Assembly: GCA_027618475.1 (NCBI GenBank)
Contig: JAQCEJ010000044.1
Coordinates: forward strand, 1 to 41,512
Reading direction: 5' to 3'
DNA length: 41,512 bases
DNA from: Planctomycetota bacterium
GTDB taxonomy: Bacteria; Planctomycetota; Planctomycetia; Planctomycetales; Planctomycetaceae
The notes under the pieces were generated by a model. The model ran no database searches, was not told where the DNA came from, and was given only the letters and a program-made list of their open reading frames with translations. Positions within the stretch are counted from its first letter, which is position 1; each line of letters starts with the position of its first letter. Of the stretch, positions 2,904-39,336 are shown piece after piece. The translations under genes and the position numbers were made by a program.

Positions 2904-3461
2904 TCACTCCGCAGCCGGAGTCGCCTCCACTGACGCTTCCTCTCCGGACGCTTCCTTCTCGGCGAGCGCCTTGAGCTGACCGGAAATTTTACCGCCGGGA
3001 CCAAGCAGAAGAGCACCCAACTGACGCCCGGGACTCAGCATCAACGTCACAATTTCGCCCAGCGTTTCGATACGACCGGCACTCTTGCTGAGGGAATCAA
3101 CGTCAGCAGAGGATAAGGCTGCCCCTTCGGCAACCCCCCCCTTGATCTCGAGAGTGGCAATATCCTTCGCCCATTTGGCGATTTCTTTGGAGAGAGCAAC
3201 AATATCTTCGCCTCCCCAGACCAGCGTCGACGGACCTTCCAGGACGCCATCGAGTGCCGTCACGCCGTTTTGACGCAGCGCAACAGAGGCTAGTGCATTC
3301 TTCACGGTCAACGCCGCGATATTTTTCTCACGCAATGCGATTCGCATTTTATTGGTTGTGACGGCGTCAACCTTGGCCAAATTCACGACAAGGAAGTTCG
3401 TTTCGTCGCCGATGCGTTTTTGCAATTCGGTGATCACCATCTGCTTAACCTGCTTACTCAT
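2904..3461 (-). CDS. rplJ: Ribosomal protein L10
   Basis: L10 is the base of the ribosomal stalk. It binds 23S rRNA and carries L7/L12 dimers on its C-terminal helix. The product has 185 residues, slightly longer than the E. coli protein (165), with a Glu/Ala-rich C-terminal extension (EKEASGEEASVEATPAAE). The N-terminal domain begins MSKQVKQMVITEL. It contains the family signature region around FLVVNLAKVDAVTTNKMR (about residues 23–40) and the VKNALASVAL segment. GAGGG lies about 4 bases before the ATG. The gene sits 71 bases after rplA, a short leader in which L10/L12 feedback control might occur, as in E. coli. I did not see a definite L10-binding fold. Confidence 0.96.
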   Translation of the reverse strand: MSKQVKQMVITELQKRIGDETNFLVVNLAKVDAVTTNKMRIALREKNIAALTVKNALASVALRQNGVTALDGVLEGPSTLVWGGEDIVALSKEIAKWAKDIATLEIKGGVAEGAALSSADVDSLSKSAGRIETLGEIVTLMLSPGRQLGALLLGPGGKISGQLKALAEKEASGEEASVEATPAAE

Positions 3462-36452: not shown

Positions 36453-37478
36453 CTATTTTCTGAACAGTCCATTGCGCTCTTTCAGCAGCGATGCTGCGGC
36501 AAAAGCACACGCCGCCGATGAAATCGACGCACCGAATGCACTTGTAAGCGAAATGACCTCTGCCTGACGGAGATCGGCGTGATTCCGAGCGATACGCAAC
36601 GCCAGAAATTCACCGCTTCCCGAAACAAGAACCACGCGCGGAGGAATACTGCTACGGGAAACAACCGCTGATACGGCACCTTCTATTTGTTCGTATTGAC
36701 GTTGCGCCAACTGACGGCACATTTCGTCGAGTTCGTCATTGCTCACCTCCGTGCAATCGCAGCAAATCATTCGCGCCAACCGCTCGGCTGCTTCATCGCG
36801 CGTCGCCGGTCGGCCGTTCGCCGTTTCACAGTCGGCCTCATCCTGTGCTACGTCGTTGCGCCAAATATAGACATCGTGCATCGTCGCAAACACTTCGGCC
36901 GCCAGACCAACTGTCGATTCTCCCAGTCGTACGTCACGCCCGATCGCACACAGTGGAGTCCTCTTGACTCCACTGTAGACAAGTTCGCCCGACGACAATC
37001 GTTCGCGATCGGTTCGTCCATGTGAATTCGGCAATCCATCGCACAGTGGTATTACATCGGTGGTCGTCGAACCAATATCGATAAGCAACCCGTTCCCTTC
37101 AGCAACAAACCGACCCGCGAATGTGGCCAGCAGATGCCAGTTCGCCGCTGCGACCAACTCGGGTGAATCGCGAGCGACATCTGGTGAGACGAACTCACCT
37201 GCGGTCTGCCAGACCATCACCGGCTTGCCGCATGCCACTTCCTCCACCGCTCCGAGAATGCAATCGACTCCTTCCGACTTCGTGCGAAAGCAATCAGCGA
37301 GTTCACCCGTCATCGTGACGGCCAAACCGTCGATACTATTGATCTCAATTATCCCGCGAAGGTTGTGCGCCAATTCGTGCGGATGCTTCCATAACGGAAA
37401 CGCCCGAATCCGCGAGTTTCCGTACGAATCGCTCGATTTGAGGTTTGCCCCACCGATGTCGAGGCCGACAATGGTCAT
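36453..37478 (-). CDS. MfnF-like protein, hydantoinase/oxoprolinase (ASKHA) family, H4MPT-linked C1 pathway
   Basis: The 341-residue protein belongs to the hydantoinase-A/oxoprolinase-like group that accompanies H4MPT pathways. In Methanocaldococcus the homologue MfnF joins the furan diphosphate unit to gamma-glutamyl-tyramine in methanofuran synthesis. ASKHA-type motifs are GLDIGGANLKSS (5–16), VTMTGELADCF (54–64), LLIDIGSTTTDVIPL (131–145) and LVSGSGEFLALRIA near the C terminus. The ATG has AAGGTGAAG upstream. It starts 15 bases after the stop of the ATP-grasp gene, so the two form an operon. In bacteria the product would be methylofuran. Family assignment is strong; the exact reaction is inferred from homology and context. 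Confidence 0.85.
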   Translation of the reverse strand: MTIVGLDIGGANLKSSDSYGNSRIRAFPLWKHPHELAHNLRGIIEINSIDGLAVTMTGELADCFRTKSEGVDCILGAVEEVACGKPVMVWQTAGEFVSPDVARDSPELVAAANWHLLATFAGRFVAEGNGLLIDIGSTTTDVIPLCDGLPNSHGRTDRERLSSGELVYSGVKRTPLCAIGRDVRLGESTVGLAAEVFATMHDVYIWRNDVAQDEADCETANGRPATRDEAAERLARMICCDCTEVSNDELDEMCRQLAQRQYEQIEGAVSAVVSRSSIPPRVVLVSGSGEFLALRIARNHADLRQAEVISLTSAFGASISSAACAFAAASLLKERNGLFRK

Positions 37479-37493
37479 GTTTCTGACTTCACC

Positions 37494-38564
37494 TTATAAA
37501 CCCGCTTCAGGTCTGAACCGTATCGTCTTACCGCAATCCCAGAATAACGATTCCAGCCGATCATCGCGTTCGAGCATCCGCTCCGCAAGATTGGTAGCTG
37601 TGAGTTGTCGATAACCGAGATAACTCGTCGTCAGCCGCGGATTGATTTCGACGATTAACGGATCGTTCGGTTGTTGAAAGGGAAGGATCAAATCAAACCC
37701 GACATACCCCCTGAGGCCGGGAACATTTCGACAAACCGTGCGTATCATTCGACAAATCGATGCCTGCACATCGGCAGCCAGCGCCGGTTCGACCGGAAGC
37801 TCTCCCCCTTCATAAGCGAATTCCTTCTCGACATTGATGTACTGTCGGCCTATCGGAAATATGTCGCATTCCTCTTGTGAGTAAAATAACGCCGAACACG
37901 ACAATGACATCCCGGCGATGTAAGGCTGCAAGAGATATTCTACGTCAGAATTCCGATGCGTATCCAGCAATGTACGATACGCTTCAATTGCGTCGGCGAA
38001 ATCAACTCGATGCATCCCCTGCGAGCCGGCACCGTCTCGCGGTTTAAGTACACAACCATTCTCACAATTCATGTCCATCTCATCGAACGCAGCCAACCGG
38101 TAGCGAGAAAGTGGTTGCGTTTCGATCGTCGGTAGTCGTAGCAACCTTAGGAATCGAAATGTTTCCCATTTGTCGCTACACAGTCGAATCGCCTCGGCAG
38201 AAGGCCCGAGTAACCGGCATCCGCGACTTTCGAAAAACTCGGCACGCGCGGCGAGTATGCCGTGCGACTCCGGTGCGATCACCAATACATCGGATAGATC
38301 ACCAATCAAGCGTTCCCAGGCACTTCGTTCTTCCTCCGGTCCGCTGACGGGAATCACGTTTACGCCATCGAAACGAGGAGTTCCCCATCGTCTATCCCAT
38401 GTGGTCCAGATTTCCAAGTCAGAAACACGGCTGAAATCGGCCAGAATGGCCGACAGCATCGCCTTCCCTTCCCGAAAGAGTGAGTCCGAGGGATGGCGTG
38501 CTTCGCATCCTCCGCCGCAAATCGATTCCGAAACCAGCACGCGTCGTTTCGAACGATGAACCAA
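37494..38564 (-). CDS. ATP-grasp ligase, MfnD-like (tyramine/tyrosine–glutamate ligase)
   Basis: The 356-residue protein is an ATP-grasp ligase. The N-terminal part has SICGGGCEARHPSDSLFREG (14–33), typical of the MfnD-like group. The ATP-grasp core contains CVLKPRDGAGSQGM (171–184), a glycine-rich loop around YIAGMSLSCSALF, GYVGFDLIL (287–294) and the Mg-binding VEINPRLTTSYLG (305–317). MfnD adds glutamate to tyramine in methanofuran synthesis; bacterial methylofuran uses tyrosine and more glutamates, so the acceptor may differ. The start is a TTG with GGAG 8 bases upstream; a GTG eight codons later is possible. It heads an operon with the MfnF-like gene, and the two would do consecutive steps. 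Confidence 0.8.
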   Translation of the reverse strand: MVHRSKRRVLVSESICGGGCEARHPSDSLFREGKAMLSAILADFSRVSDLEIWTTWDRRWGTPRFDGVNVIPVSGPEEERSAWERLIGDLSDVLVIAPESHGILAARAEFFESRGCRLLGPSAEAIRLCSDKWETFRFLRLLRLPTIETQPLSRYRLAAFDEMDMNCENGCVLKPRDGAGSQGMHRVDFADAIEAYRTLLDTHRNSDVEYLLQPYIAGMSLSCSALFYSQEECDIFPIGRQYINVEKEFAYEGGELPVEPALAADVQASICRMIRTVCRNVPGLRGYVGFDLILPFQQPNDPLIVEINPRLTTSYLGYRQLTATNLAERMLERDDRLESLFWDCGKTIRFRPEAGL

Positions 38565-38673
38565 AGTGACTTCTCCACAACAATCAGACGAAAATGAACT
38601 TGACGATGGAATACGTCGATCGATGAAATATAATCGAACCCAAAATCAATGACGGTACTCGCGACTAGAACTG

Positions 38674-38749
38674 GTTTCATAACCCGGTTGGCGACGTAAT
38701 GATCGTCCAAATTGTCCTGAAAAACTCAAAGTCCAGAGGGTTATGAAAC
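38674..38749. repeat. 12-bp perfect inverted repeat upstream of the mfn-like operon
   Basis: GTTTCATAACCC (38674–38685) and GGGTTATGAAAC (38738–38749) are exact reverse complements separated by 52 bases. They lie in the divergent gap between the ATP-grasp gene (minus) and the DUF3592-like gene (plus). They could be paired operator sites or the ends of a tiny mobile element; no target-site duplication is evident. Confidence 0.75.
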
Positions 38750-38811
38750 TGCTTGTAAGAACTCTGACGCAAAACGAGTTTCAACTCAAGGGATCGCTTC
38801 AATAGTCGGGA

Positions 38812-39336
38812 ATGAAAGAGATGCTCTTCGGATCACCGTTGAGACGCATGGCCAATTACGACGAAGAGACAGAGTCAGAAGCTCTCAAACTCAAGTGGCT
38901 CCTGATAGCCGGGGTCGCATTTTTAGTTTCGGCGTATTATTCGTATCGTGAATTCAAATACCTCGTCTGGGGAAAAACCGTTGCCGCTGTCGTCACGCGG
39001 ACGTACGAACATCAGGAACTCAGTCGCCGGGGCCGGAAAAAAACAGTACGTGTCGTCGAATACGCATTCGACGACGAAAACAACACGAACTGGAGAGAAC
39101 GCGATACGGTCCCGCTGAAGAGGACGATCACCGAACCGCTCGTCGCAGTTCAGTACCTGCCGGGCGAAAGAAAATCGTCGCGGCTCGAAGGAAACTCTCA
39201 TTACTTTGCCGTATGGGTTTTTCTCGGTTGTGTCACTTGGCTTGGGTATTCGTTCTTCCGGCTTTATCAGGAGGCCAACGAACCGGTCAGGCGTGCACGG
39301 CCAGGTTCACGAAAACCTCGCGTGCGTGATTTTTAA
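38812..39336 (+). CDS. DUF3592-like membrane protein
   Basis: The 174-residue protein has two membrane helices (about 29–47 and 129–148) flanking a soluble region. That region holds KTVAAVVTRTYEHQEL, VRVVEYAFDDENN and EPLVAVQYLPGERKSSRLEG, the pattern of DUF3592 domains, which are found in many membrane proteins of unknown role. The C terminus is basic (RRARPGSRKPRVRDF). Start sites at 38812, 38821 and 38848 are all in frame, and none has a clear ribosome binding site. It diverges from the mfn-like operon across the inverted repeat. No functional link to neighbours is evident. Confidence 0.75.
   Translation: MKEMLFGSPLRRMANYDEETESEALKLKWLLIAGVAFLVSAYYSYREFKYLVWGKTVAAVVTRTYEHQELSRRGRKKTVRVVEYAFDDENNTNWRERDTVPLKRTITEPLVAVQYLPGERKSSRLEGNSHYFAVWVFLGCVTWLGYSFFRLYQEANEPVRRARPGSRKPRVRDF

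Follow-up and report, generated by a model that had tools for sequence, protein, structure and literature searches.

A dispersed MITE-like element inserting at TA sites in a planctomycete genome, with relatives in other genera

The inverted repeat found in front of a group of mfn-like genes in a Planctomycetota genome (assembly GCA_027618475.1) very probably represents the two ends of a dispersed, MITE-like element that inserts at TA and would be moved in trans by a DDE-type transposase. It was detected in contig JAQCEJ010000044.1, whose 41,512 nucleotides are referred to here as the window, and the initial annotation had offered two readings for it, an operator pair controlling C1-cofactor genes or a miniature element. 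The second one is borne out by at least 148 copies scattered over the genome and by the duplication of the TA target. The element family is real and has been recently active; as far as our searches reach, both its sequence and its host group are new, and it is ordinary in kind.

The repeated unit and its dispersal

The two 12-bp arms, GTTTCATAACCC and GGGTTATGAAAC, are perfectly complementary and separated by 52 bases, exactly where they had first been described. The extent of the repeat, on the other hand, had been drawn too narrowly at the outer ends of the arms, and the unit that is actually repeated is longer (Table 1). Only one copy was found in the window by the search with our covariance model (R1), which aligned to it over positions 1–92 of 92 with 111.3 bits. 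This copy has stops in five of the six frames, and the sixth is open for 30 codons only.

Table 1. Location of the element, its parts and the neighboring genes in the window.
Feature	Position	Strand	Evidence
MfnF-like gene	36453..37478	-	TIGR03123, above cut-off
Neighbor, MfnD-like ATP-grasp protein	37494..38564	-	NCBIfam NF040722 and Pfam ATP-grasp_3
Whole repeated unit (TA + 88-bp element + TA)	38666..38757	+	Covariance model R1; flanks of 51 and 146 copies
Left TA, target-site duplication	38666..38667		TA/TA in 101/146 copies; concordant dinucleotide in 5/12 non-TA copies
Left end, GAACTG-GTTTCATAACCC-GGTTG	38668..38690	+	Conserved in own genome and, with changes, in other genera
Left 12-bp arm, GTTTCATAACCC	38674..38685	+	Arm of the initial annotation, re-found
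Variable center	38696..38729	+	Mean consensus identity 0.76 (arms 0.97) in 121 copies of 92 bp
Right end, CAGA-GGGTTATGAAAC-TGCTTG	38734..38755	+	Copy alignments, own genome and other genera
Right 12-bp arm, GGGTTATGAAAC	38738..38749	+	Arm of the initial annotation, re-found
Right TA, target-site duplication	38756..38757		Copy-end counts and disrupted gene at locus L101
Neighbor, 174-aa ORF	38812..39336	+	No family match

The claim that such a match is unlikely by chance is weak if the window alone is considered, as perfect 12-bp inverted repeats with gaps of 3–100 turned up in 56 of 200 first-order Markov sequences as long as the window (mean 0.315). It is the whole genome (5.93 Mb) that decides the matter in its favor: the 12-mer is present 226 times (108 + 118), against none for the reversed pattern that served as control. 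The exact 76-bp unit (12 + 52 + 12) appeared at 71 places and arm pairs with a gap of 40–65 at 77. The model R1, built from 40 distinct copies, retrieved at least 148 full-length copies and two cut ones (the best 150 of 2906 candidates). Manual inspection beyond the model matches added two more degenerate copies (C64:166 and C104:5524). The figure of 148 is a lower bound and amounts to about 0.2% of the genome. The search for the 12-mer and its spacing, proposed at the outset as a means to tell a regulon from a mobile element, has thus given the many scattered copies expected from the latter. Some of these copies are recent, as eight of them are identical over 88 bp.

The 12-mers lacking a model match (on C19, C50, C104 and two on C64, inspected by eye among 100 of the 226 places) did not reveal any long element; other than the two degenerate copies already mentioned, they were degenerate or truncated. 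Two copies in the same orientation, with 34 bp between them, were found at C129:88029-88246 (L153). At the end of contig C64 (L142, from 2986 onwards) there is a left end that lacks a right end over the last 190 bp or so. It is probably a copy that has been truncated and may otherwise be an autonomous element cut by the end of the contig.

The boundaries were established by aligning 51 copies together with their flanks. The copies resemble each other from the TAGAACTG that precedes the left arm to the TGCTTGTA that follows the right one. Beyond these limits the flanks share only a short target preference and are otherwise unrelated. We recovered 146 of the 148 full-length copies (all except C104:25007 and C153:73744), and their length was 92 bp in 121, 91 bp in 16, 93 bp in four, 90 bp in two, and 95, 89 and 82 bp in one each, although R1 was itself built from copies with near-perfect arms, and weak copies or those of other lengths may be too few in this set. 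The 51 aligned copies had also been selected for near-perfect arms, and arm conservation was therefore measured in the model-based set. In the 121 copies measuring 92 bp, the mean identity to the consensus was 0.97 in each arm and 0.76 in the center, while the outer bases reached 0.97 at the left and 0.87 at the right. The 12-bp arms were fully complementary in 71 of these 121 copies, and the six bases outside them pair imperfectly.

Insertion at TA and duplication of the target

Insertion takes place at TA, which is duplicated. The clearest evidence on the mechanism of insertion is a gene disruption at locus L101, where one copy (1416-1507, i.e., C21:10055-10146) interrupts an IS200-type Y1_Tnp gene. 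If the element is removed leaving a single TA, the reading frame runs across the junction (...LIHLIYST-KHRMPWISNE...) and the conserved N-terminal stretch with the HxxxST region is recovered. The protein restored in this way aligns without gaps through the junction with its paralogs at L098 (45% identity over 141 aa) and L099 (42% over 145 aa), and those of L102 and L103 also align across it and have a single gap beyond. With both TAs left, the part before the junction falls in another frame and the conserved stretch is lost, and with no TA left stops appear. As the frame is restored with one TA only, the gene must have gained 90 bp, the 88 bp of the element plus a duplicated TA.

TA was present at both ends in 101 of the 146 copies, at one end only in 33 and at neither in 12. 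These last 12 include five with the same dinucleotide at both sides (GA/GA three times, TT/TT and TC/TC) and seven in which the two are discordant. When the right ends were shuffled among copies, five or more concordant pairs arose in 17 of 100,000 permutations, and the three concordant cases among the 96 copies with clean ends were equalled in 91 of 100,000; the permutations assume independent copies and these are related, so that the figures are not exact probabilities. In the TT/TT copy (C84:110334) the 76-bp core is that of the commonest identical type, which would hardly be expected had both its flanks mutated independently.

The preferred target is palindromic, about TGAC-TA-GTCA, and stronger at the right side, with G at +1 in 102 and A at +4 in 92 of the 146 copies (chi-square with 3 df of 184.6 and 112.9, respectively). 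At the left the values were 40.4 at -4, 35.4 at -3 and 24.9 at -1. Because the TA is duplicated and the target is palindromic, we infer a DDE-type enzyme that makes a 2-bp stagger: a transposase supplied in trans would bind both ends of the element and cut its palindromic target with a 2-bp offset in the manner of IS630/Tc1-mariner. The 33 copies without TA at one end and the seven discordant ones among the 12 without any TA count against this explanation.

Relatives in other genera

Matches to the model (E up to 0.01) were found in 11 of 120 genomes of the same family, including the original one, and in seven of 58 genera; stricter filters were used in this search, and the approximately 35 copies found in the rich genomes are a lower bound. 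Outside its own genome, the arm type of the window, with arms at 40–65 bp, was detected in a single one of 148 relatives (G064). Most copies of other genera have instead GTTTCAAAACCC / GGGTTTTGAAAC, i.e., both arms have mostly changed together (CATAAC to CAAAAC), and the outer six bases also vary somewhat. One or the other arm type appeared in at least 53 stretches across GTDB genomes, 52 of those listed belonging to planctomycete records. The core measured 76 bp in 57 of 64 copies, collected with a pattern that allowed 74–78 bp.

Three things are unusual in this family: a length that hardly varies from genus to genus, arms that change in pairs, and the missing enzyme. The first of these speaks against the explanation that we prefer, as the length is kept more tightly than decayed transposons would lead one to expect, although the model and the patterns used favor that length. 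The paired arm changes could come from a single enzyme that recognizes both ends or from template-switch correction of palindromes.

In one relative (IP29b_bin.70, L191, about 3180-3343) two copies follow each other in tandem and their junction, TGTCTGGTGGAG, is repeated, which resembles a BIME. A match in an Acidobacteria MAG (L190, 1561-1653), a 77-bp palindrome whose arms are the GTTTCAAAACCC of the other-genus copies, was rejected as a member of the family for its GC-rich, unrelated interior and weak model score (E 0.0024).

The search for the transposase

No autonomous partner was found among the DDE_3, DDE_Tnp_1, DDE_Tnp_1_2 and Y1 loci of the draft genome, and this also weighs against mobilization by a DDE enzyme; an autonomous copy that is itself repeated could be hidden by the assembly, which consists of 218 contigs. 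The only DDE_3 (IS630-type) locus of the genome (L096, 1378-2678) is split over two overlapping frames, which indicates a broken or frameshifted gene, and its own ends, compared by eye, are different from those of the element. The nine DDE_Tnp_1 loci and two DDE_Tnp_1_2 loci (which coincide with two of the former) had no arm pair, and at L360 a copy truncated by the locus edge shows its left part only and points away from the transposase gene. DDE_3 matches were present in eight of the ten element-bearing relatives and missing from two that are rich in the element (G045 and G051). The 30 DDE_3 loci of the relatives did not contain any arm pair, and nine of them had single 11-mers with one mismatch.

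A different kind of enzyme has to be considered here. REPIN-like doublets are moved by Y1 (RAYT or TIRYT) HUH transposases as a hairpin of paired palindromes that inserts as single-stranded DNA without duplicating its target, and the element resembles them in its hairpin-forming doublet with conserved ends and a variable center. The genome has 14 Y1_Tnp genes, some arm changes are paired, and REPs and TIR-flanked Y1 genes have been described in Planctomycetes (PMC3733652), although what the accessible part of that work portrays is a different type from our element. In spite of this we find such an origin improbable. None of the 14 Y1_Tnp loci (taken with 1.5 kb, less at contig ends) is flanked by the element, as would be the case for a RAYT with its REPs, and a copy is present in just one of them, the L101 gene, which it interrupts. 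Neither the 2-bp target duplication nor the palindromic target described above is expected from HUH insertion. The interrupted gene is flanked by a 44-nt inverted repeat of its own, 82% complementary (1268-1311 / 1962-2005) and unrelated to the element, apparently the REP/TIR pair of that gene.

The hairpin and its covariation

That the hairpin itself is under selection, as a structured non-coding RNA or a transcript-stability element, seems less probable still. Its folding z-scores were -2.28 and -2.92 on the two strands, and covariation was sought in an alignment (A3) of 32 sequences from 11 genomes, restricted to arm and near-arm pairs and leaving out L168 and L185. Four of the 16 pairs, with 11 cells, had changed on both sides across genera (shuffled means 1.4 and 2.1), the plainest example being columns 15 and 80, with A-U in 25 sequences and U-A in seven. 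Pairing was maintained in 94.3% of the cells, compared to 90.6% after shuffling and at most 64.1% in the slid controls. However, slid controls reached 18 and 16 two-sided cells, and a slide of -1 gave a covariation score of 0.113 versus the 0.103 observed. The covariation across genera therefore beats the shuffles and not all of the slid controls, and is not conclusive.

Within the original genome, three of the four two-sided arm changes were compensatory, against 73 arm cells that had changed on one side only. RNAalifold found no two-sided change there, in copies picked for perfect arms in which only five inner pairs are informative. No Rfam family was recognized in the region, the sole match (E 0.69) being far below its gathering score. 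Template-switch correction of palindromes, or the shared recognition of both ends, could likewise account for the paired arm changes.

Placement and the neighboring C1 genes

The copies are placed mostly between genes. Of those with at least 500 bp at each side (120 of 146, the other 26 having short flanks), 111 were intergenic, six overlapped the end of an ORF and three were spanned by one, according to a crude ORF calling based on codon usage. Among the 98 copies with a called ORF on both sides, 69 lay between tandem genes, 17 between divergent and 12 between convergent ones, and the nearest called ORF on a side was a median of 60.5 bp away (208 sides). We scanned 120 of the 200 called neighbor ORFs (from the first 150, omitting some short ones), and no protein family was matched by more than four of them, DUF1501 and PSD1 being at the top with four each. 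H4MPT-pathway families were absent from the 25 most frequent among the 139 Pfam and the 602 NCBIfam families matched by these neighbors, and single C1 genes may occur among the rarer ones.

The description of the genes beside the window copy as mfn-like was broadly right. The MfnF-like gene exceeds the cut-off of its family, while the MfnD-like one matches NF040722 (E 1.1e-25) with 90.6 bits for a cut-off of 400, and ATP-grasp_3 with E 3.7e-26. Matches to mfnD-like genes were present in 114 other genomes, and the 29 for which the locus was returned were searched with the model (E up to 1). The element was absent beside the mfnD-like gene in all 29, including four from genomes that carry it elsewhere (G051, G065, G023 and G088), and the same search found the window copy as a control. 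These loci come from other genera, with proteins 36–44% identical, and their synteny at the far side is not assured. Absence from the same site in relatives is what the initial annotation itself had named as evidence against its proposal. An operator pair or regulatory site for H4MPT/C1 genes was attractive for the perfect match of the 12-bp arms and their place between two divergent genes, of which one is MfnD-like, yet with at least 148 copies over the genome, no dominant neighbor family among those scanned and no copy at the 29 mfnD-like loci, it is refuted as the origin of the repeat and retains next to no probability. The window copy would simply have landed between the mfnD-like gene and the divergent ORF, and any effect on either of them would be incidental.

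Comparison with known elements

A short (<200 bp) non-coding sequence with terminal inverted repeats (TIRs), a target-site duplication and many dispersed copies corresponds to what is called a MITE. Bacterial MITEs have TIRs, TA termini and target duplication, and experiments are said not to have supported so far their mobilization by transposases (PMC2229807, in the text available to us). By these descriptions our element appears comparable to RUP, Correia and ERIC. RUP, from Streptococcus pneumoniae, is a 107-bp MITE with 108 copies that is ascribed to IS630-Spn1; in the same available text it is small, devoid of open reading frames, intergenic and directed to TA, and it inactivates IS transposase genes, as one copy of our element does (PMC2229807). 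Compared by description rather than by sequence, RUP differs in having a cognate IS, while none was found here, and it was described from a single species (PMC2229807) whereas this family spans seven genera.

The ERIC or IRU sequences of Enterobacteriaceae are similar in being family-wide, with an inverted repeat, TA termini and duplication, and tens to hundreds of copies (PMC2229807 and PMC10969869, as far as the available parts tell). The likeness is one of type and not of sequence, ERIC being 127 bp long with a contiguous TIR of 7 bp, against 12 bp in our element. Correia or NEMIS elements of Neisseria, again by description only, share the TIR, the TA termini, the target duplication and the more than 100 copies, and differ by their 24-bp TIR and by occurring in two size classes. 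They are reported to have functions that involve promoters, IHF and RNase III.

No description of this element family was found among the top results of our literature searches, the coverage of which leaves out most subscription papers. The arm sequences were met in nine papers, on unrelated organisms and subjects judging from titles and the beginnings of abstracts, and the term "planctomycet" does not occur in the main text of a review on MITEs (PMC10969869).

Implications

The analysis removes a false regulatory lead beside the H4MPT-cofactor genes and adds an apparently undescribed repeat family that is common to seven genera. It also carries a warning for annotation, as the element provides convincing intergenic palindromes and can break genes. 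Going beyond the MITE-like reading, elements of about 90 bp directed to TA might have persisted throughout the family during the divergence of its genera, their two arms changing together and their length staying almost the same, served by a single-copy, perhaps domesticated, DDE transposase that is not linked to them. We consider this scenario rather unlikely. If it were true, an unlinked single-copy enzyme of this kind would be the DDE counterpart of the REPIN-RAYT arrangement, and if one such enzyme keeps the element moving, its copies would make up a tractable, long-lived population of parasites inside bacterial chromosomes.
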